From: a virus
Direction: 5' to 3' (one strand)
Virus record (IMG/VR): IMGVR_UViG_3300004463_000277
Span: 1 to 39,845 of that record
Length of the DNA: 39,845 bases
Of the stretch, positions 2,341-38,795 are shown piece by piece. Each line of letters opens with the position of its first letter. Position 1 is the stretch's first letter. Both the position numbers and the translations under genes were made by a program. The notes beneath the pieces are model-generated. The model was not told the DNA's origin. It ran no database searches and was given only the letters and a program-made list of their open reading frames with translations.

Positions 2341-3004
2341 CATCATCACGGAGGCCTTTGTTGATTTGGCGGTGATTCAGCCGGGCGAAACCATCTCCTC
2401 GGACATGCAGGCGAACGCCTTCCTGGTCCTGAAGCAGATGCTCTCGAACTGGTCCGTGGATCAGGCTCTCGCTTATCTCAACGTTCACGGGGATTTTAAC
2501 CTCGTCGCCGGAACAGCGGCCTACACCGTGGGTACCACGGGGTCTCTGGCGACTGCGGCGAGGCCGGTCCGCATTGTGTCCTGGCAGTCCCGTTCGGGGA
2601 ATTTTTCGAACGGCGGGGCTTGCATTTCGTTCGATGAGTTTCGCGCGAAGCAGCAGAACTTGACGGCGAAGCGCTCGGTGCTCGCGGAGATGGTTGCAGC
2701 GGACACGGGATATCCGACCATCGGCATCGAAGTGTTCCCTGTGCCGGATACGTCGCCGGGTACGCTCCGTCTCGACTACTGGACCCCGGTAGTGGAGTTT
2801 GCTTCGGTCGGCACAACGGTCAACCTGCCTGACGGCTGGGAAGCGGCTGTGCATTTCAATCTCGCCGTGCAACTGGCTCCGCAGTACGCGAGACAGACTG
2901 GAATCACGCCGGAGCTCGCAGCCAACGCCAAGAACACGCTTGCGGAGTTAAAGGCCAAGAACGCCGCCATTCTCGGGATTGCGGGAGCACAGGAGGCGGC
3001 GTAA
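2324..3004 (+). CDS. P22 gp4-like head-to-tail adaptor (first copy)
   Basis: A TTG start at 2324 is chosen because GGAGGT ends 6 nt upstream and no ATG fits. The 226-residue product has the layout of the P22 tail accessory factor gp4 family: an N-terminal helical segment (ANAFLVLKQMLSNWSVDQ), a central insertion with AAYTVG and a C-terminal helix pair after the PDGWEAAVHFNLAVQLAPQY motif, where 'LP..w..Al..nLA..lap.y' is typical. In P22 this protein forms a 12-mer ring under the portal. P22 gp4 also has muralytic activity; no catalytic motif is evident here. Its stop overlaps the start of a paralogue (TAATG). Confidence 0.8.
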   Translation: MALVSDIITEAFVDLAVIQPGETISSDMQANAFLVLKQMLSNWSVDQALAYLNVHGDFNLVAGTAAYTVGTTGSLATAARPVRIVSWQSRSGNFSNGGACISFDEFRAKQQNLTAKRSVLAEMVAADTGYPTIGIEVFPVPDTSPGTLRLDYWTPVVEFASVGTTVNLPDGWEAAVHFNLAVQLAPQYARQTGITPELAANAKNTLAELKAKNAAILGIAGAQEAA

Positions 3005-3990: not shown

Positions 3991-5489
3991 GACGAGCACT
4001 TACGGCGATTTTCTTATTTGTTTCGGCCTGCGCGGCACAGCAGATCAGCCTTGTCCGCAATGTGCGTGACATACTTCGTGTTCCGAACGGCGGAACGGGG
4101 CTCGGAATCACGGCCGATAACACGATGCTCGTTTCGAACGGGACCCAGTATACCGTCGTCTCGATTCCAAACTGCCCCGACACTGGCGGGAACCACCTAA
4201 ATTTTGTTCAGTCCAGCAAGACGATGGTCTGCGGCAACTCCGGCGGGGGAGGGGGCGGCGTTACCAGCTTCAATGGGCGCACCGGAGCGGTCATTCCGGC
4301 GACCGCCGATTACAGCTACCCCCAAATTTCCGGGGATACCATCTCGCTCACTCGTTCGGGAACTTTCGACAGTTCAGCGTATACGCCGGTCTTCAACGGG
4401 CAACTCGGAGTGGGCGCCGATTCCGAAACGATGCGCCTTGATATCACCGGCATCGTGGCCAAGCGCCCGAATGCGACGATGGGCGCGACCAAAGTTCCCT
4501 CGAATGCGACTGTTTATGAGGCGAACGGCATTTCCGGGCTTATCGAAAACGCCTCGCCGATCACCAACGCCGTAGCGGGCTCGTTCATGGCCGGAATCAG
4601 CGCCGCGCCGCCTACGGGAACCTGCAACACATCCGGGATTACGGTGACGAGGGTAAGCGGGCCGTCGTTCAATACGGCATGGGCGAACATTTCCAACACG
4701 GCATTCAATGTCAACGGCACCGATTACATTATTGCGAGCGTCATCGACGGCGACACATTGACGCTGACGGGCTCGGCAGGGGTGCAAAGCGGCGTTAGTT
4801 GGGCGCGAAGAGTATTCGTCTGGGGAATCAACTCGCTGGTGACGGACGGGCTTCCTGGGGCGGTAGGCTCTCCATCCTATGACTGGACCTATCTAACGAA
4901 CGAGTTCGATTTCGACGCGCACCACACCACAACGAAGATTTTTGCTCAGACCATTACCGGGGCGAGCACGGTTCAGCCGGATACGGCATACGGGTACACG
5001 GTGAATTACCTGGGGCCGGCGGTCAAGTGGAATTGCGGTTTCTGCACGCTCGATGGAACCACCGATCACGCTATGCAAGTCGGGCGCACGGGGACAGGCA
5101 ATAATGTTCCGTCCCAGCACATTTTGATGTTCAGTCGCAGCAGCGGGGGAAACGAGTTTGGAGCTTCGATCCGGGCCGACGCGGATGGGAACCTGGTTCT
5201 GAATCCGGGCGTTCTCATTCCCTCGGGCGGCAACCCTCAGACGATTATGCGCGATGCAGCCGGGAACATCGTGGCGTCCTTCAAGGGCTCAAACGGGGGC
5301 GCTACGCCATCGCTCGAAATGGCCTCGGGAGCGGGGATTCAGCTTGGAGCGAAGACGTTTTTGGCTCTGGGTACGCCTTCCAACGGGACGGAGTATTACT
5401 GCTCGGACTGCAACAAGGCGACTCCGTGCACATCCGGGGGCTCGGGAGCCTTCGCGAAGCGCATCAATGGCGCCTGGGACTGCGACTGA
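3987..5489 (+). CDS. Tail fibre-like protein with Sec/lipoprotein signal
   Basis: The N-terminus MRRALTAIFLFVSACAAQ is a clear export signal; V12-S13-A14-C15 fits a lipobox, and A15-x-A-type cleavage is the alternative. After it come phage-fibre motifs: VPNGGTGLG, then a Gly6 hinge (residues about 86-91) and FNGRTGAVIPATADYSYPQI, a repeat common in tail fibres. The C-terminal half is beta-rich and ends with AKRINGAWDCD. ATG 3987 overlaps the previous stop. Virion fibres are normally assembled in the cytoplasm, so a signal peptide is unusual. It may be a fibre, or an exported surface protein of infected or lysogenic cells. Confidence 0.7.
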   Translation: MRRALTAIFLFVSACAAQQISLVRNVRDILRVPNGGTGLGITADNTMLVSNGTQYTVVSIPNCPDTGGNHLNFVQSSKTMVCGNSGGGGGGVTSFNGRTGAVIPATADYSYPQISGDTISLTRSGTFDSSAYTPVFNGQLGVGADSETMRLDITGIVAKRPNATMGATKVPSNATVYEANGISGLIENASPITNAVAGSFMAGISAAPPTGTCNTSGITVTRVSGPSFNTAWANISNTAFNVNGTDYIIASVIDGDTLTLTGSAGVQSGVSWARRVFVWGINSLVTDGLPGAVGSPSYDWTYLTNEFDFDAHHTTTKIFAQTITGASTVQPDTAYGYTVNYLGPAVKWNCGFCTLDGTTDHAMQVGRTGTGNNVPSQHILMFSRSSGGNEFGASIRADADGNLVLNPGVLIPSGGNPQTIMRDAAGNIVASFKGSNGGATPSLEMASGAGIQLGAKTFLALGTPSNGTEYYCSDCNKATPCTSGGSGAFAKRINGAWDCD

Positions 5490-7180
5490 TGCCGCGGGTT
5501 CCCCTGGTAGGTCCATTCGGGACGCTTCGATCACTCGCAGCGAGCGCGGAGACGTGCTGTAACCTCTACCCGGAAGGGATAGCCGATCCCCAGGAACGAT
5601 TGAAGGGCGGCGGGTTCCTCGTCGGCACGCCTGGAAAGTCCCTGTTCTCGACGCTGCCTAATTCCCCGATACGCGGCGTATGGTCTGGCGGTGGGCGTTT
5701 GTTTGTCGCTGCCGGAACGCGCTGGATGGAGCTCGATTCGGGCGGTAACGTCATCCTGGGGCCGTATATCATCGCGGACGATGCGGCGCATTCCCCGGTT
5801 CAGTTCTTCGCCAATGGAAACCAGCTTTTCATCGTGAGCGCGGGGCTCTGCTACGTGAGCAATGGCGGCTCCGCAACGCAGATCGGCCTGCCTACGCTTT
5901 CATCCGACATCGCTCTCAATGGCCAGTGGGTCGAGTGGACAGGCGGCGATACGTTCCCTGTGGGGCTTACGGGGTCCATTCTCAACATCTCAGGCGGTGT
6001 GGGGCTGAAAACCGTCCAGCAAGTCTTGAGTCCGACGCTGCTGTTTCTGACCACGGATACCGGAGTTATCGGCAATCGAACATTCCTCGGCGTGCCTTCA
6101 CTGACCGCGCAGACCGGGGCTTTCCTGGATGGGTATTTCATCTGCAATCAGCCAAACACGAAGCAGTTCTCAATCTCTCCACTCCTCGATGGAACGAACC
6201 AGGGAACCTACATCTGGAACGCGCTCGATTTCGCCGTGAAGGAGAGCTACCCCGATTACATCCGGGGAATTCTGGTTTCCGGCGAGCAGCTGTACCTGTT
6301 CGGCTCTGAATCCTTCGAGGTTTGGCAGAACACGGGTGGAAGCATCCTTCCGGGGGGCGCTACTGGATTTCCATTTGAGCGCATCGACGGAGCCACGGGA
6401 AAATACGGCGTCACGTCACCGTGGGCGATGGCCTCGGTTGCGGGGCGGGTGTTCTTCCTCGGTGGCGATGCGACGGGACAGGCGACGGCCTACGAAATGG
6501 TTGGCTGGACGCCCCGGCGCATCTCGACGCACGCAGAGGAGGAAACTTGGGGAGCCGGGGGCCTGGGGTCAACCGCAGTGACGTTCGGCTACCAGGAGGA
6601 TGGGCATGATTTCTGGGTTATCAACTTCGGCGTGGGCAAAGGGCCTGCGTATGTGTTCGACCTGACAACCGGGCTGTGGCATACCCGCTCTAGCTCGGGA
6701 ACAACGGGCGATTACGGCACACAATATCACACGTTCGTTACCAACGAAGCGACCTCCGCGAACAACTGGGGCTCAGGGGGCAAGCACATCACCGGAGGGC
6801 CGGGAAGCGGGACGCTGTACCAATCGAGCATCAACCTGTACTCGGAAGCGGGAGCGGATATCACTCGCCAACGAGCGATTCCGTACCTCTACAACGCTGG
6901 GAATCGGATGTACTTCGGCCGGCAGACGCTCGAAATGGACACCGGGACCGTATCGGGTGGCGCGGCTCCGAACGTGGTCCGGGATTACTCCGATGACCGG
7001 GGGCACAACTTCGTCAATCCGCAGAGCGCGAGCATGGGGACTAACGGCGAGTTTTCCAAGCGGGTGTTTTGGCCCGTTTGCGGCTCGTCGCGGGATCGCG
7101 TGTTTCGCTATACAGTCACCAGCCAGGCGAAAGTTAATCTGGTGAGCCTGGATGCGGACGTGACGAACGGCGTAAATTGA
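5489..7180 (+). CDS. P22 gp10-like packaged-DNA stabilisation (tail hub) protein
   Basis: ATG 5489 overlaps the previous TGA; the in-frame upstream ATG at 5426 lies inside the fibre gene and is not used. The 563-residue product begins PRVPLVGPFGTLRSLAASAE and NLYPEG, the hallmark of the gp10/phage-stabilise family. It continues with a repeated beta-blade pattern: SPIRGVW-type segments, ANGNQLFIVS, GYFICNQPNTKQFSISPL, LYLFGSESFEVWQNTG and FPFERIDGATGKYG. In P22, gp10 hexamers close the tail after gp4 and help retain DNA. Position after gp4-like genes agrees. Confidence 0.85.
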   Translation: MPRVPLVGPFGTLRSLAASAETCCNLYPEGIADPQERLKGGGFLVGTPGKSLFSTLPNSPIRGVWSGGGRLFVAAGTRWMELDSGGNVILGPYIIADDAAHSPVQFFANGNQLFIVSAGLCYVSNGGSATQIGLPTLSSDIALNGQWVEWTGGDTFPVGLTGSILNISGGVGLKTVQQVLSPTLLFLTTDTGVIGNRTFLGVPSLTAQTGAFLDGYFICNQPNTKQFSISPLLDGTNQGTYIWNALDFAVKESYPDYIRGILVSGEQLYLFGSESFEVWQNTGGSILPGGATGFPFERIDGATGKYGVTSPWAMASVAGRVFFLGGDATGQATAYEMVGWTPRRISTHAEEETWGAGGLGSTAVTFGYQEDGHDFWVINFGVGKGPAYVFDLTTGLWHTRSSSGTTGDYGTQYHTFVTNEATSANNWGSGGKHITGGPGSGTLYQSSINLYSEAGADITRQRAIPYLYNAGNRMYFGRQTLEMDTGTVSGGAAPNVVRDYSDDRGHNFVNPQSASMGTNGEFSKRVFWPVCGSSRDRVFRYTVTSQAKVNLVSLDADVTNGVN

Positions 7181-24939: not shown

Positions 24940-25671
24940 ATGGGTAGAGATACGGGCATCGAGTGGACTGATAGAACTTGGAACCCTTTTCACGGCTGCC
25001 ACAAAGTAAGCCCAGGATGTAAGGGCTGCTACATGTTCCGGGACAAAGCCCGCTACGGACAAGATCCAAACATTGTGGTTCGCTCTAAGACCACATTTTA
25101 TGCCCCATTGAAATGGCCGAAAGAGCCAGCAATGTGCTTCACCTGCTCATGGTCTGATTGGTTCATCGAAGAGGCTGACCCGTGGCGCGATGAAGCCTAC
25201 GGGGTTATTCGGCAGACTCCGTGGATTACGTACCAGATTCTAACGAAGCGGATCGAGCGGGCTGCCGGGCGCGTCCCAGATCCGCCATTGCCGAACCTCT
25301 GGTTGGGAGTCTCTGCCGAGAACCAGGAGTACGCCGATAGGCGACTCCCTCTGCTCTTGCAGACACCGGCGGCGGTAAGGTTCGTTTCGTATGAGCCTGC
25401 TCTTGGTCCTGTGGATCTCAGCCAGTATCTGCCCGCCCTCGATTGGGTAATCTGCGGCGGCGAATCTGGGCCGGGCGCACGGCCGATGCAGCCCGATTGG
25501 GTGCGGAGCGTGCGCGATCAGTGCCAAGCGGCCGGAACCGCGTTTTTCATGAAGCAGTGGGGCGAGCACAATGACAAGCTTGTTCGCGTGGGCAAGAAAG
25601 CAGCGGGGCGCGAGCTCGACGGGCGCGAGTGGAACCAATTTCCCCTGGCGGGACTGAAACAAATCTCATGA
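24940..25671 (+). CDS. DUF5131 / Gp37-Gp68 family protein
   Basis: ATG 24940 has a strong SD (gggaggaaa). The 243-residue product is full length for the phage Gp37/Gp68 family: IEWTDRTWNPFHGCHKVSPG, CKGCYMFRDKARYG, CFTCSWSDWFIEEAD, WLGVSAENQEYADRRLPLLL, SYEPALGPVD and WVICGGESGPGARPMQPDW, then MKQWGE. The cysteines around residues 20-31 may hold an iron-sulfur or zinc centre, and the fold looks related to radical-SAM TIM barrels. Its role in phage is not known. It overlaps the integrase start by four bases. Confidence 0.85.
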   Translation: MGRDTGIEWTDRTWNPFHGCHKVSPGCKGCYMFRDKARYGQDPNIVVRSKTTFYAPLKWPKEPAMCFTCSWSDWFIEEADPWRDEAYGVIRQTPWITYQILTKRIERAAGRVPDPPLPNLWLGVSAENQEYADRRLPLLLQTPAAVRFVSYEPALGPVDLSQYLPALDWVICGGESGPGARPMQPDWVRSVRDQCQAAGTAFFMKQWGEHNDKLVRVGKKAAGRELDGREWNQFPLAGLKQIS

Positions 25672-26858
25672 ACCGCGTGCTTCTAAATTCGGCTAATCTT
25701 CCCGTTCCGGGAGGATACGACGATATGCCGAAGCGCTACCAGGACCCAAAGCTGGAAAAGCGTACAGACGTGGCAAGACCGTACTGGTTCATCCGAGTGA
25801 GACTTCGCCGCGGCGACCCGCGGAGCCCCCAGCGCATCGGCTTCTGCGACGAGATGACGCTGAAGCAGGCGAAAGAGACGCGGGGCGAATTCCTGAAGAA
25901 CGTGAACTCCGGGCTGTTCGTGGGCCAGGCCCGTGTTTCGTTCCGCGCAGTGGTCGAGCGCTACCAGAAGGGGCGATTGGAATTGCTCGGGACTGGAACG
26001 CAGGCGCGGTACCGAAGCCAAATCGTAACGCACATCCTGCCGGCGTTCGGCGACCGAGCGCTGAGAGACATAGACCAATCGCTGATTGAGGCGTGGATTG
26101 CAGGCAAAGCCAAGGACGGGCTCTCCTGGTGGACACGGGAGGGGCTGCGGGGCGTTCTGTCGAGCATCTTCGCAGCGGCTAAGGATTGGGGCTGGTGGAC
26201 TGGAGAAAACCCTGCTGTGGGCGTGAAATTGGGCGTGAAACAAACTATACGGAATTTGTCTCAGCGCCCGCCGCTGACCACGGGCGAGCTCCAATCAATT
26301 CTCGCGGCGGTTTCTCCGGATACGCGCTTCATGCTTCTCGTGGCAACGCTCATCGGGCTGCGGGTATCTGAAATCCTCGGGTTGAAGTGGTCGGACATCG
26401 ACATGGAAGCGGCAACGCTCAAGGTGAATCGCCGATACTACCGGGGCGACATCGCGGAGCCCAAGACGGAAGCGAGCAAGCGCACGCGGAGGCTGGGACC
26501 TTTCGTGGAGGAATTCAAGGCCCGCTTTCCTGGACCGCACGCGCGGGACTGGTGGGTGTTCGGCGGTCCACATCTGCCGCCGATCGAGTCGGACATTCTG
26601 CGGTACGAGCTTCGCCCGGCGCTGAAGCGGCTGGGGCTCTACTTCCAAGGGTTCGGCTGGCATCATTTCCGCAGGCAGAACGTAAGCTGGCGGCAGACGG
26701 TCGGACAGGCAACGCCGATGGAAGCGCAGAAGGCGGCGGGTCACAAGGATTTGAAAACCACGCTCGAATACTTCCTGGTGGACCCAGAGCGGGAATCGGA
26801 TCAGGTAGGGCGGATGTTTGATCGGCTGATGGGGCCGACAGGGGAGACAAAACAGTGA
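25668..26858 (+). CDS. int: Tyrosine-recombinase integrase
   Basis: ATG 25668 overlaps the preceding stop; the upstream in-frame ATG at 25629 lies inside that gene. The 396-residue protein has an N-terminal arm/core-binding part (YQKGRLELLGTGTQARYRSQ) and a catalytic domain with R232 in LIGLRVSEILGLKW, H332-x-x-R335 in WHHFRRQN, H359 in AAGHKDLKTT and Y368 in LEYF. It catalyses site-specific integration and excision. A tRNA-derived attP lies about 290 bp downstream of its stop. No excisionase is recognised; several small HTH proteins could serve. Confidence 0.93.
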   Translation: MNRVLLNSANLPVPGGYDDMPKRYQDPKLEKRTDVARPYWFIRVRLRRGDPRSPQRIGFCDEMTLKQAKETRGEFLKNVNSGLFVGQARVSFRAVVERYQKGRLELLGTGTQARYRSQIVTHILPAFGDRALRDIDQSLIEAWIAGKAKDGLSWWTREGLRGVLSSIFAAAKDWGWWTGENPAVGVKLGVKQTIRNLSQRPPLTTGELQSILAAVSPDTRFMLLVATLIGLRVSEILGLKWSDIDMEAATLKVNRRYYRGDIAEPKTEASKRTRRLGPFVEEFKARFPGPHARDWWVFGGPHLPPIESDILRYELRPALKRLGLYFQGFGWHHFRRQNVSWRQTVGQATPMEAQKAAGHKDLKTTLEYFLVDPERESDQVGRMFDRLMGPTGETKQ

Positions 26859-27124
26859 GCACGTGGACCGAGTTTTTAGAGGAGAACGGGCCAGAAGAAA
26901 CTGCTGATGCAATGGTGGCGATGGTTGAGGCTGACGTTCATCTGAAATCGGCAGTTTTGGTGATGGGGTTGGAATGGTGCATATCGAGGCTCCAGGAGAT
27001 TCTGGACACAAAGGGGCAGGTTCCAACGATTTTGGATCAACTCTTCAGTTTTAAGTACGCTAACCACGATTCTCCGAACCAGAACGGAAGTGGCGCGGAA
27101 ATAGAACGGATGGCACGGGACTGA
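26855..27124 (+). CDS. Small acidic protein after int
   Basis: GTG 26855 overlaps the int TGA. The 89-residue product is acidic and helical (WTEFLEENGPEETADAMVAM, then VLVMGLEWCISRLQEIL). It lies between int and attP, where excisionases sometimes sit, but it lacks a basic HTH. Unknown. Confidence 0.5.
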   Translation: MSTWTEFLEENGPEETADAMVAMVEADVHLKSAVLVMGLEWCISRLQEILDTKGQVPTILDQLFSFKYANHDSPNQNGSGAEIERMARD

Positions 27125-27147
27125 ACGATGCTAAACGCTTTGGAATG

Positions 27148-27197
27148 TGGTGGGCCCGACAGAACTCGAATCTGTGACCTCTACCGTGTCAAGGTAG
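27148..27197 (-). other. attP: attP core: 3' half of tRNA-Val(GAC)
   Basis: On the minus strand this reads as anticodon arm CTACC-TTGACAC-GGTAG (anticodon GAC), a 5-nt variable loop AGGTC, T arm ACAGA-TTCGAGT-TCTGT, acceptor strand CGGGCCC, A and CCA. The 5' half (D arm, acceptor GGGCCCG) is missing next to it, so it is not a full gene. Such half tRNAs next to int are attP cores that rebuild the host tRNA on integration. The 150 bp to the right hold a 7-bp stem pair (27291-27297 with 27310-27316) that may be an arm-type site. Confidence 0.85.
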
Positions 27198-27345
27198 AAC
27201 GTCATGGTGAAACGGTGGGACTTGCAGGCGGTCCGCCCAATTGGCGCGGAGTTGAGCGGGGCGCTCGCAGCACGAAAATGGTTCGGCGTCCCGTGCCAAG
27301 CTGTTTTGTGGCACGGATTCGTAGTGGTTCGGCAAGGAGCGGAGA

Positions 27346-27891
27346 ATGAGCCAAGGGTTCGGAGTGCTCATTCTTACGCAAGGCTACACCGCACTGGTGG
27401 ATGCCGAGGACTTCGAGCGTGCCAACGCCTTCTCTTGGTATGCATCACCAGGGAGGCGCGGAACGGGTTGGTACGCAATCGGAACAGTTAATGGCGAACG
27501 CCAGCAGTTGGGACGGTTCATTCTTGGCTTGCCGAAAGGCGTAACGGCGGACCACATCAATGGCGATGGCCTCGATAATCGCAAGGCGAATCTGCGGGCC
27601 GCGACAGCTCGCCAGAATGCTCACAATACCTGCAAGAAGCGCACGAACACGAGAAATGAGGCTCCATCGTCAGCCTTTAAGGGAGTTCACCTTGACCGTA
27701 GTTCGGGACGGTGGCGCGCGCAGATTCGTTGTCCAGGTGGTAAGCGCCTCAGCTTAGGGAGCTTTCTCCAGCCGGAAGCCGCTGCCCGAGCCTACGACGA
27801 AGCAGCCCGGAAGCTGTTCGGTGAATTTGCCCGGCTGAACTTCCCGGCAGAGGTTCATCGTAAGGAGGGAAATGCCTCTTCTGCCGCCTGA
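27346..27891 (+). CDS. HNH endonuclease with AP2 domain
   Basis: ATG 27346 has SD aaggag. The 181-residue product has an N-terminal fold (YTALVDAEDFERANAFSWYA), the HNH core ADHINGDGLDNRKANLRAAT and ARQNAHNT, and a C-terminal AP2 domain (FKGVHLDRSSGRWRAQI, FLQPEAAARAYDEAARKLFG). This is the layout of free-standing phage homing endonucleases, where AP2 binds DNA and HNH nicks it. It lies right beside attP and opens the accessory region. It overlaps the next ORF by 20 bases. Confidence 0.9.
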   Translation: MSQGFGVLILTQGYTALVDAEDFERANAFSWYASPGRRGTGWYAIGTVNGERQQLGRFILGLPKGVTADHINGDGLDNRKANLRAATARQNAHNTCKKRTNTRNEAPSSAFKGVHLDRSSGRWRAQIRCPGGKRLSLGSFLQPEAAARAYDEAARKLFGEFARLNFPAEVHRKEGNASSAA

Positions 27892-28356: not shown

Positions 28357-28476
28357 GTGGAAAAATCTAAGCCGTGGGACCGTGCTGCCGACGTGGGGCA
28401 CAGGGATTCCGAGAGTGCGGCGAACGTTGGCGTCGGGGATGCTGTTGTGCCTAGCCGCTTGCCGGGACTTCGATGA
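28357..28476 (+). CDS. 39-residue ORF with KPxDRA cassette (paralogue of 24682)
   Basis: GTG 28357 has aaggagtagaga as SD. The peptide MEKSKPWDRAADVGHRDSES then AANVGVGDAVVPSRLPGLR keeps the KPxDRA, ESAA and AVVPSRLP blocks of the 24682 ORF. DNA identity extends over both ends of the cassette (28369-28465), including GCTGTTGTGCCTAGCCGCTT. Its TGA overlaps the next ATG. Confidence 0.45.
   Translation: MEKSKPWDRAADVGHRDSESAANVGVGDAVVPSRLPGLR
28369..28465 (+). repeat. KPLDRA cassette, copy 2
   Basis: aagccgtgggaccgtgctg at the left end, gagagtgcggcg in the middle, gctgttgtgcctagccgctt at the right end. About the same length as the reference copy but with a diverged interior. Confidence 0.8.
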
Positions 28477-29027
28477 AGCTCATGCTTGTGCCTCTGACTT
28501 TGCGCGCAGCGAACCAATTCGTGGAGCAGTTCCACCGTCACAACGGGCGCACAGCTCGGGACGGCGGCAAGTTCGCAGTCGGAGCGTCGGATGGTAACGG
28601 GTTGGTGGGGGTTGCGATTGTTGGTAGACCGCTGGCACGGTTACTCAATGACGACTGGACCGCTGAAGTTTTGCGCTCGTGTGTACTGGACACGGCCCCA
28701 AAGGGGACAAACTCGTTCCTATATGGTGCTTGCTGGAGGGCATGGCGTGCGATGGGTGGTCGCAAACTAATTACATACACACTTGCCACCGAGTCGGGAG
28801 CATCGCTTCGTGGAGCGGGTTGGACGGTGGTCGCCGAGTGTAAACCAAGTAGCGGGTGGAATCGCGAAGCGCTAGGCAGAATGCGCGATTGGCAACCCAT
28901 CTATGGGCAGGCAAAATTTCGGTGGGAGATTTCAGCACCCAGCACCAACCCGCAGCCAGCATCCACCGGGCTCGCTGAACCTTCGGCCCGCGCCGAGACA
29001 AGTAAGGCAACGCCTGAGAATCTTTGA
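28473..29027 (+). CDS. XF1762-like GNAT-related phage protein
   Basis: ATG 28473 overlaps the previous TGA. The 184-residue product shows the XF1762-family order: VPLTLRAANQFVEQFHRHNG, GKFAVGASDGNGLVGVAIVG, RPLARLLNDDWTAEVLRSCV, NSFLYGACWRAWRAMGGRKL and ITYTLATESGASLRGAGW. The fold is GNAT-like; an acetyl transfer or DNA-modification-linked role has been discussed for related phage proteins but is not established. The C-terminal 30 residues (STGLAEPSARAETS) match the tail of the gene at 18459. Confidence 0.7.
   Translation: MKLMLVPLTLRAANQFVEQFHRHNGRTARDGGKFAVGASDGNGLVGVAIVGRPLARLLNDDWTAEVLRSCVLDTAPKGTNSFLYGACWRAWRAMGGRKLITYTLATESGASLRGAGWTVVAECKPSSGWNREALGRMRDWQPIYGQAKFRWEISAPSTNPQPASTGLAEPSARAETSKATPENL
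28964..29005 (+). repeat. Dispersed cassette TGLAxP...AETS, copy 2
   Basis: End of the XF1762-like gene; ccgggctcgctgaacc and cgccgagacaagta align with copy 1 at 18809. Confidence 0.7.
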
Positions 29028-37114: not shown

Positions 37115-37305
37115 GTCGTCCTTGTCAGCAATGCGGGCGTCCAGCGACTTACCAGCGCCCGAAACAGCAGGGAAAGAGGGTTATGAGCGGCCATCGCACA
37201 AGGCTTGGCAGGGCTGATCATGACCTCTGCGGACGCTGCTGGAAGAAGCTGTTAACGAGCGTCGAGCGGCGTTCGGATAACGTGGCATCTGCGCGGTGGG
37301 CATGA
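37111..37305 (+). CDS. Small zinc-ribbon protein
   Basis: TTG 37111 overlaps the TerS stop. The 64-residue product has MSRPCQQCGRPATYQRPKQQ and DLCGRCWKKLL, two C-x2-C pairs about 37 residues apart, a zinc ribbon. It sits between TerS and TerL and overlaps TerL by four bases. Unknown role, perhaps packaging. Confidence 0.55.
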   Translation: MSRPCQQCGRPATYQRPKQQGKRVMSGHRTRLGRADHDLCGRCWKKLLTSVERRSDNVASARWA

Positions 37306-38795
37306 CCGCAACCGCCTCCGCTGAGCTTTGCCGAGAGATCGCCAAGTTCTACGATGACCCCTACGGCTACGTTGTCTCAGCGTTCCCCTGGGGAGAGCCG
37401 GGCACGGACCTGGCGAGCGCCACAGGCCCGGACACATGGCAAACGGCAGCGCTCAAGGAAATCGGCGAGCTTGTTAAATCGCGCGCCTTCGATGGCTCAA
37501 CTCCCGTTGCTCCGATCCGCTTCTGCCGGGCATCCGGGCACGATATTGGTAAGTCCACCTTCGCGGCCTGGATCGTCAACTGGATCAAGGACACGCGCCC
37601 GGATTCCATCGGCACGGTAACGGCCAACACCTTCAGCCAGCTTGAGACAAAAACCTGGGCGGCGATTCAGAAGTGGGCCAAGCTCGCGATTACGCGGGAC
37701 TGGTGGGAAATCACCAGCACCAAAATCTATTCGCGCCAGCCTGACAAGCAGGAAACATGGTTCGTGGCCTGCCAAAGCTCCAGCGAGGAGAACAGCGAGG
37801 CTTTTGCCGGCCAGCACTCACGGTTCTCAACAAGTTACTACGTGTTTGATGAAGCCTCCGCGATCCCGGATGAAATCTGGCGCGTTGCGGAAGGTGGCCT
37901 GACGGACGGCGAGCCGATGATCTTCGCATTCGGGAACCCAACGCGCAATACGGGGATGTTCTATGAAACTTGTTTTGGAAATCGAAGGCATCGATGGAAT
38001 CACGGATCAATCGATTCAAGAACTTCTGGAATTAGCAACAAAGACACTATCGAAGAATGGCTCCAGGATTACGGCGAAGATAGCGATTTCTTCAGAGTCC
38101 GAGTTAGAGGTCTACCGCCGAATGCAGCAGAGGACCAGCTTATCGGACGTGACCTCATCGAAGGGGCTCAAAAGCGAGTGGTGTCCGCGTTGCCAGATGA
38201 TCCCCTTATCGCGGGAGTCGATGTCCCGGACGGAGGAAGCGCGTGGTTTATCATCCGGTTCCGCCGTGGGCTTGACGGAAATCCTTGCACGCCGATTCGG
38301 ACTCCTGGCTCCCGCATCGACCGACAGCAAATGATCGCCAAGTGCGCGGAGGTCATGAGCGAGCAATCCCCCCAGAAGCGCGTGGCGGCGATGTTCGTTG
38401 ATTCGGCCTTCGGCGCTCCGATCGTGGAACGGCTGCACGTGCTGGGCTTTAACAACGTGATCGAGGTCAACTTCGGCTCGGTGAAGGTTCCCGATCAGCA
38501 CTATGCCAACATGCGGGCCTTTATGTGGGGCAAGCAGCTAAAGGACTGGCTCTCGCGCGGCTCCATCGATCCGAACGACCAGAAGCTCGCGGTGGACCTG
38601 CAAGGGCCGGGCTGGCACTTGAACAATCGCCAGCAGCTTGTTCTGGAATCGAAACAGGATATGGCAAAGCGGGGGATTCCGAGCCCGGATGATGGAGACG
38701 CGCTGGCGCTGACGTTCGCGCAGACTGTCGCGCCTCCGGTCAAGGCGCAGCCGGCCGCACAGTATCCAGTGGGAGGCAATTCATGGATGTCATGA
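37302..38795 (+). CDS. terL: Terminase large subunit
   Basis: ATG 37302 overlaps the previous TGA; GTG 37296 is an alternative. The 497-residue protein has the packaging ATPase (Walker A S-G-H-D-I-G-K84-S-T, Walker B YYVFD183E184, coupling motif FAFGNPTR) and an RNase-H-like nuclease (D307 in AGVDVPDGG, D367 in MFVDSAFG, D464/D466 in PDDGDALAL). It cuts concatemers and drives DNA into the portal. Order TerS-TerL-portal is typical of P22-like phages; headful packaging is likely but not shown. Confidence 0.95.
   Translation: MTATASAELCREIAKFYDDPYGYVVSAFPWGEPGTDLASATGPDTWQTAALKEIGELVKSRAFDGSTPVAPIRFCRASGHDIGKSTFAAWIVNWIKDTRPDSIGTVTANTFSQLETKTWAAIQKWAKLAITRDWWEITSTKIYSRQPDKQETWFVACQSSSEENSEAFAGQHSRFSTSYYVFDEASAIPDEIWRVAEGGLTDGEPMIFAFGNPTRNTGMFYETCFGNRRHRWNHGSIDSRTSGISNKDTIEEWLQDYGEDSDFFRVRVRGLPPNAAEDQLIGRDLIEGAQKRVVSALPDDPLIAGVDVPDGGSAWFIIRFRRGLDGNPCTPIRTPGSRIDRQQMIAKCAEVMSEQSPQKRVAAMFVDSAFGAPIVERLHVLGFNNVIEVNFGSVKVPDQHYANMRAFMWGKQLKDWLSRGSIDPNDQKLAVDLQGPGWHLNNRQQLVLESKQDMAKRGIPSPDDGDALALTFAQTVAPPVKAQPAAQYPVGGNSWMS

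Follow-up and report, generated by a model that had tools for sequence, protein, structure and literature searches.

A tRNA-Val(GAC) 3' half beside an integrase gene as the probable attP core of a Bryobacterales phage

A 50-bp segment of the viral record IMGVR_UViG_3300004463_000277 is, with little doubt on our part, the attP common core of a temperate tailed phage of the Bryobacterales, whose neighbouring integrase would recombine it with the host tRNA-Val(GAC) gene and leave that tRNA restored; the strand-exchange positions, the arm-type sites and the activity of the enzyme are predicted from sequence. The window, i.e. the whole 39,845-nt stretch of DNA analysed here, combines what would mark an attP: a 3' tRNA fragment identical to that of the host, an adjacent integrase gene, and a tRNA that is rebuilt at one predicted junction. 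Most likely, the integrase would act on the core and the identical 50 bp of the host gene and exchange strands in the anticodon stem-loop. The host 5' half would then be joined to the phage-carried 3' half to give an intact tRNA-Val at attL, next to int, and the displaced host 3' half would mark the opposite end, attR. The arrangement has long been known and its mechanism is textbook; the window adds a new example, the main value of which lies in the host assignment, as 50 bases tie the virus to the order Bryobacterales and predict the exact insertion point. To our knowledge, few acidobacterial viruses have been isolated. The int and attP pair might also be tried for site-specific integration in Acidobacteriota.

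The core occupies positions 27148–27197 on the minus strand (CTACCTTGACACGGTAGAGGTCACAGATTCGAGTTCTGTCGGGCCCACCA) and corresponds exactly to nucleotides 27–76 of tRNA-Val(GAC). It consists of an anticodon stem (CTACC/GGTAG) enclosing the loop TTGACAC with the anticodon GAC, a 5-nt variable loop (AGGTC), a T arm with five of five pairs formed (ACAGA-TTCGAGT-TCTGT), the 3' strand of the acceptor stem (CGGGCCC), the discriminator A and the terminal CCA, in this order. This is the layout attributed to the segment in a preliminary description, and the lack of a D arm and a 5' acceptor strand reported there was confirmed in the sequence immediately 5' of the core (...catgacgtt). Neither did closer folding reveal a complete tRNA, as ARAGORN found none anywhere in the 39,845-nt window. 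The core without CCA, a 47-mer, occurs once in the window, compared to zero occurrences expected in shuffled sequences. A 73-aa open reading frame (27128–27349, plus strand, starting with MLNALECGGPDRTRICDLYRVKV) crosses the antisense of the tRNA half and is almost certainly a spurious reading of the tRNA sequence and no gene. A match to the Rfam family HPnc0260 (E = 0.16, below the gathering threshold) rests on the antisense-tRNA part and was dismissed as a chance hit.

The int gene (25722–26858, plus strand) encodes a tyrosine recombinase with matches to PF00589 (E = 2e-11), PF14659 and phrog_1 (E = 6.5e-46). The gene lies to the left of the core and runs towards it, so that int and the tRNA half are convergent; its stop at 26858 is separated from the core by 289 bp, in agreement with the spacing of about 290 bp given before. 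In an alignment of eight, residues R214, K248, H314, R317 and Y350 are invariant, and H341 is conserved except for a Q in the genome G189. We take these residues to be the catalytic R...K...HxxR...H/W...Y set, their roles being assigned from knowledge of the family, and by this pattern the product is a tyrosine recombinase of the phage integrase type. An 89-aa open reading frame without an assigned family (26855–27124, plus strand) is located between int and the core and could, speculatively, encode an excision factor. The phage side immediately to the right of attP begins with a homing-endonuclease-like HNH/AP2 gene (27346–27891, plus strand), and a gene for a DUF5131 protein (24940–25671; PF07505, E = 2.2e-82) lies directly upstream of int.

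Hybrid attachment sites were constructed in silico for five hosts. According to ARAGORN, a complete tRNA-Val is present at the hybrid attL, where the phage core follows the host 5' flank, for the five hosts, and the reciprocal attR junction gives no tRNA; the proposal that integration would restore the host gene is thus supported, with the tRNA completed on one side only. The same result bears on tRNA-dependent lysogeny, a strategy described for phages with integration sites in tRNA genes (PMC10865867), in which the host tRNA is disrupted upon insertion and a tRNA of the same isotype, encoded by the phage, makes up for the loss. We give this scenario next to no probability for the window, given that its core is 50 bp versus about 10 bp in that system, that the modelled junction is a complete tRNA-Val, and that no tRNA gene was found in the window.

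When 84,980 species genomes were scanned for exact matches to 47 of the 50 core bases (without CCA), 20 matches were obtained in 17 genomes (G001–G017), all of which belong to one order, the Bryobacterales of the phylum Acidobacteriota (the order of G009 by genome search). Complete tRNA-Val(GAC) genes account for 17 of the 20 matches, and the other three (L010, L011 and L012) are the same 3' half, beginning with the same base and preceded by unrelated DNA. In L012, ARAGORN called a 74-nt tRNA that combines the half copy with unrelated sequence on its 5' side, and this call was rejected as spurious. The T stem is variable among the 257 genomes of the order, and the exact version found in the core is present in a part of the order only. 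The preliminary description had expected bacterial tRNA-Val(GAC) genes sharing the core to identify the host; such genes do exist, they are confined to one acidobacterial order, and the phage is likely to infect a Bryobacterales acidobacterium, a prediction made at the level of order. No near-identical integrase or terminase-like gene, as would indicate a lysogen of the same phage, was found in the 257 genomes, where the best matches are 48% and 58% identical, respectively. The titles of the matching genomes read Bryobacterales, Bryobacteraceae, gp3, Terriglobia or Acidobacteria, with one Acidimicrobiia. The last of these (L018, VFZE01000008.1) carries a bryobacterial tRNA-Val and was placed in the same order by genome search, so its title is probably wrong.

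When the same genomes were searched with the integrase, the three best matches (L022, G009 and G010; 42–44% identical) were all located at the tRNA-Val core. In L022 (IMGVR_UViG_3300048811_000068), the end of a Bryobacterales provirus, the 42% identical integrase lies 57 bp from a complete tRNA-Val, and capsid- and protease-like open reading frames were recognized on the contig by inspection. The genome G009 has a complete tRNA-Val with int on contig C50 and the displaced half on C171, whereas G010 has a half tRNA-Val beside int on contig C260 and the complete gene on C264. In G096, int and a complete tRNA-Val share one contig and the half is on another. Finally, in G002 a complete tRNA-Val and a half with 52 bp in common lie on the same contig at a distance of 12,924 bp; the 12.9-kb element between them has other recombinase genes, and a broken, decayed relative of the window integrase is found just beyond the half. 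Genomes in which this tRNA is displaced by an element with a related integrase, the check proposed for the original reading, thus exist. The G002 locus (G002:C144, L011 and L003, 1370–15626) is a tandem insertion at tRNA-Val. In L012 (G010:C260, 1033–2361), int is 5' of the half tRNA and in the same orientation as the tRNA, and the int-core order appears to be inverted relative to the window, the only such case. The genome G130 was considered as another split tRNA and rejected, since what looked like a second copy there is just the end of a contig and has the same flank.

The closest integrase in the order (48% identical) is encoded in G189, 63 bp from a tRNA-Ala(GGC) gene. Exact 50-bp repeats at 61573 and 80691, which are 19,118 bp apart, flank a 19.1-kb element in this genome, and the repeat is the 3' half of tRNA-Ala(GGC), with the same extent as the window core. 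Similar to the window, L022 and the G189 element have a related int convergent with the tRNA and an identity block from nucleotide 27 to CCA. Unlike the window, both are integrated, with a complete tRNA close to int, and G189 uses another tRNA; their other genes are largely unrelated to those of the window. These integrated relatives also bear on a reading of the half tRNA as a decaying phage-borne gene that has lost its 5' half and plays no role in integration. Some phages do carry tRNA genes, and only the 3' half remains in the window. However, its 50 bp are identical to host genes and not decayed, its cut point is shared by the independent displaced halves of G002, G009, G010 and G096, and the core adjoins int as it does in the relatives, so decay is an extremely improbable origin for this segment.

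Phage genes surround the core on both sides. To the left of int are genes for a single-strand binding protein, an Erf-like annealing protein and a Holliday-junction resolvase, and farther left are DNA-ejection genes and the gene for the head-closure protein Hc3 (5426–7180, plus strand; phrog_578). To the right of the core are genes for the HNH/AP2 endonuclease and for Mom-like modification, endolysin-like, DnaB-like and terminase-like proteins. The terminase-like gene (37296–38795, plus strand) matches phrog_5902, for which no function is stated; no family names it as a large terminase, a function that we infer from its position and the gene order. It has many relatives with 50–61% identity in IMG/VR contigs of soil viruses and relatives with 54–58% identity in five genomes of the Bryobacterales, which points to a wide family of acidobacterial phages. 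The Mom-like DNA modification protein (28473–29027; phrog_1384, E = 3.4e-29) possibly protects the phage DNA from restriction. A megablast search with 19.8 kb of the window found no sequenced phage, the head-closure protein had no match in IMG/VR, and the integrase as a query gave only two distant loci (26–27% identical) there.

In the window, the terminase-like gene at 37–39 kb is followed, across the contig ends, by head-closure and tail genes from 2.3 kb onwards. The same packaging-head-tail order is uninterrupted in the viral contigs L098, L099 and L110, where homologues of the window genes at 3004 and 5426 follow approximately 6–7 kb after the terminase-like gene. Since the gene order of these relatives closes across the ends of the window, with roughly 2–3 kb missing, the simplest explanation of the contig is a single phage genome, nearly complete, circularly permuted and running through an intact attP; the contig showed no end repeats. 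The earlier view that the DNA is no integrated prophage, which was based on the phage genes flanking the core, is well supported by this closure of the module order, which leaves a tandem double lysogen or a concatemer as the alternatives. In the former case, the half tRNA would be an attR-type scar, namely the junction of two tandem elements at the tRNA-Val of a chromosome. Such arrangements exist, as seen in G002, where a half tRNA-Val lies between the 12.9-kb element and the decayed integrase relative, but no host gene was recognized in the window, and a single set of phage modules runs around the contig where two prophages would be expected to give two. We consider a tandem scar very unlikely and retain the free phage genome with an intact attP.

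The identity of the core with complete host tRNA genes stops exactly at the 5' edge of the anticodon stem-loop. The block of identity begins at C27 in the window and zero to two bases earlier in the five genomes that have both copies. Because identity ends at the 5' edge of the stem, strand exchange is placed in the anticodon loop, in line with the Islander subsite scheme, and the stem-loop CTACC-TTGACAC-GGTAG (27181–27197, minus strand), an inverted repeat with a 7-nt spacer, would be the crossover region. The octamer TGGTTCGG has just three copies in the window, all of them near the core, in a span of 260 bp, and in opposite orientation on its two sides: one to the left on the minus strand (27074–27081) and two to the right on the plus strand (27279–27286 and 27325–27332). 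In all, 2466 octamers occur exactly three times in the window, and because three of them, including this one, cluster as tightly (the other two elsewhere), its copies are suggestive only, as candidate arm-type sites of a lambda-like heterobivalent integrase.

Among known systems, a close parallel is provided by the tRNA-integrating islands and phages of the Islander type; this database counts a 3' fragment in 3760 islands and an anticodon-centred site in 2083, the latter subsite being one of two common classes (PMC4383910). As in the Islander subsite A, the attP of the window holds the part of the tRNA gene that extends from the anticodon loop to its 3' end, the gene would be restored upon insertion, and the displaced fragment would mark the far end; all that sets it apart from other cases of this subsite is its host lineage, the Bryobacterales, and its particular clade of integrases. 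The attP sites of mycobacteriophages with Int-Y (e.g., Boilgate and Omega) also reconstruct a host tRNA, whereas the window has a host from another phylum, tRNA-Val(GAC) as a target, and a longer exact core of 50 bp that extends through the encoded CCA. The lambda integrase (PDB 1z1g and others) belongs to the same tyrosine-recombinase family and is very distant, with a weak match at E of about 0.005. Lambda integrates outside tRNA genes.

In 11 sampled relatives of the window integrase, including the seven best of the order search, the 3' part of a tRNA adjoins or overlaps the end of int, and in every case the 5' edge of the anticodon stem is where identity starts. The tRNA is tRNA-Val in L022, L026, L027, L038, L041, L043, L045 and L060, as in the window, tRNA-Ala in L037 and L039, and tRNA-Pro in L040; a more distant integrase subclade is mostly without a nearby tRNA. 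On a quick tree, the labels Val and no tRNA were more clustered than in any shuffle. This did not hold for Ala, but two of the four rows with that label (L055 and L064) had entered solely through a more distant sense-strand tRNA-like match. The clade is not uniform in its target, since the closest integrase (G189) uses tRNA-Ala(GGC) instead of tRNA-Val. The chances are about even that the Bryobacterales integrase clade has switched repeatedly among tRNA-Val(GAC), tRNA-Ala(GGC) and tRNA-Pro(GGG) while keeping the sub-location from nucleotide 27 to CCA, tRNA-Val(GAC) thereby being a lineage-wide insertion hotspot with phages and other elements in tandem. In L041 (2757–2833) and L043 (2743–2819), the integrase frames extend through the tRNA core and end shortly after entering the 5' half that comes from the host, and therefore integration would alter the last integrase codons there.
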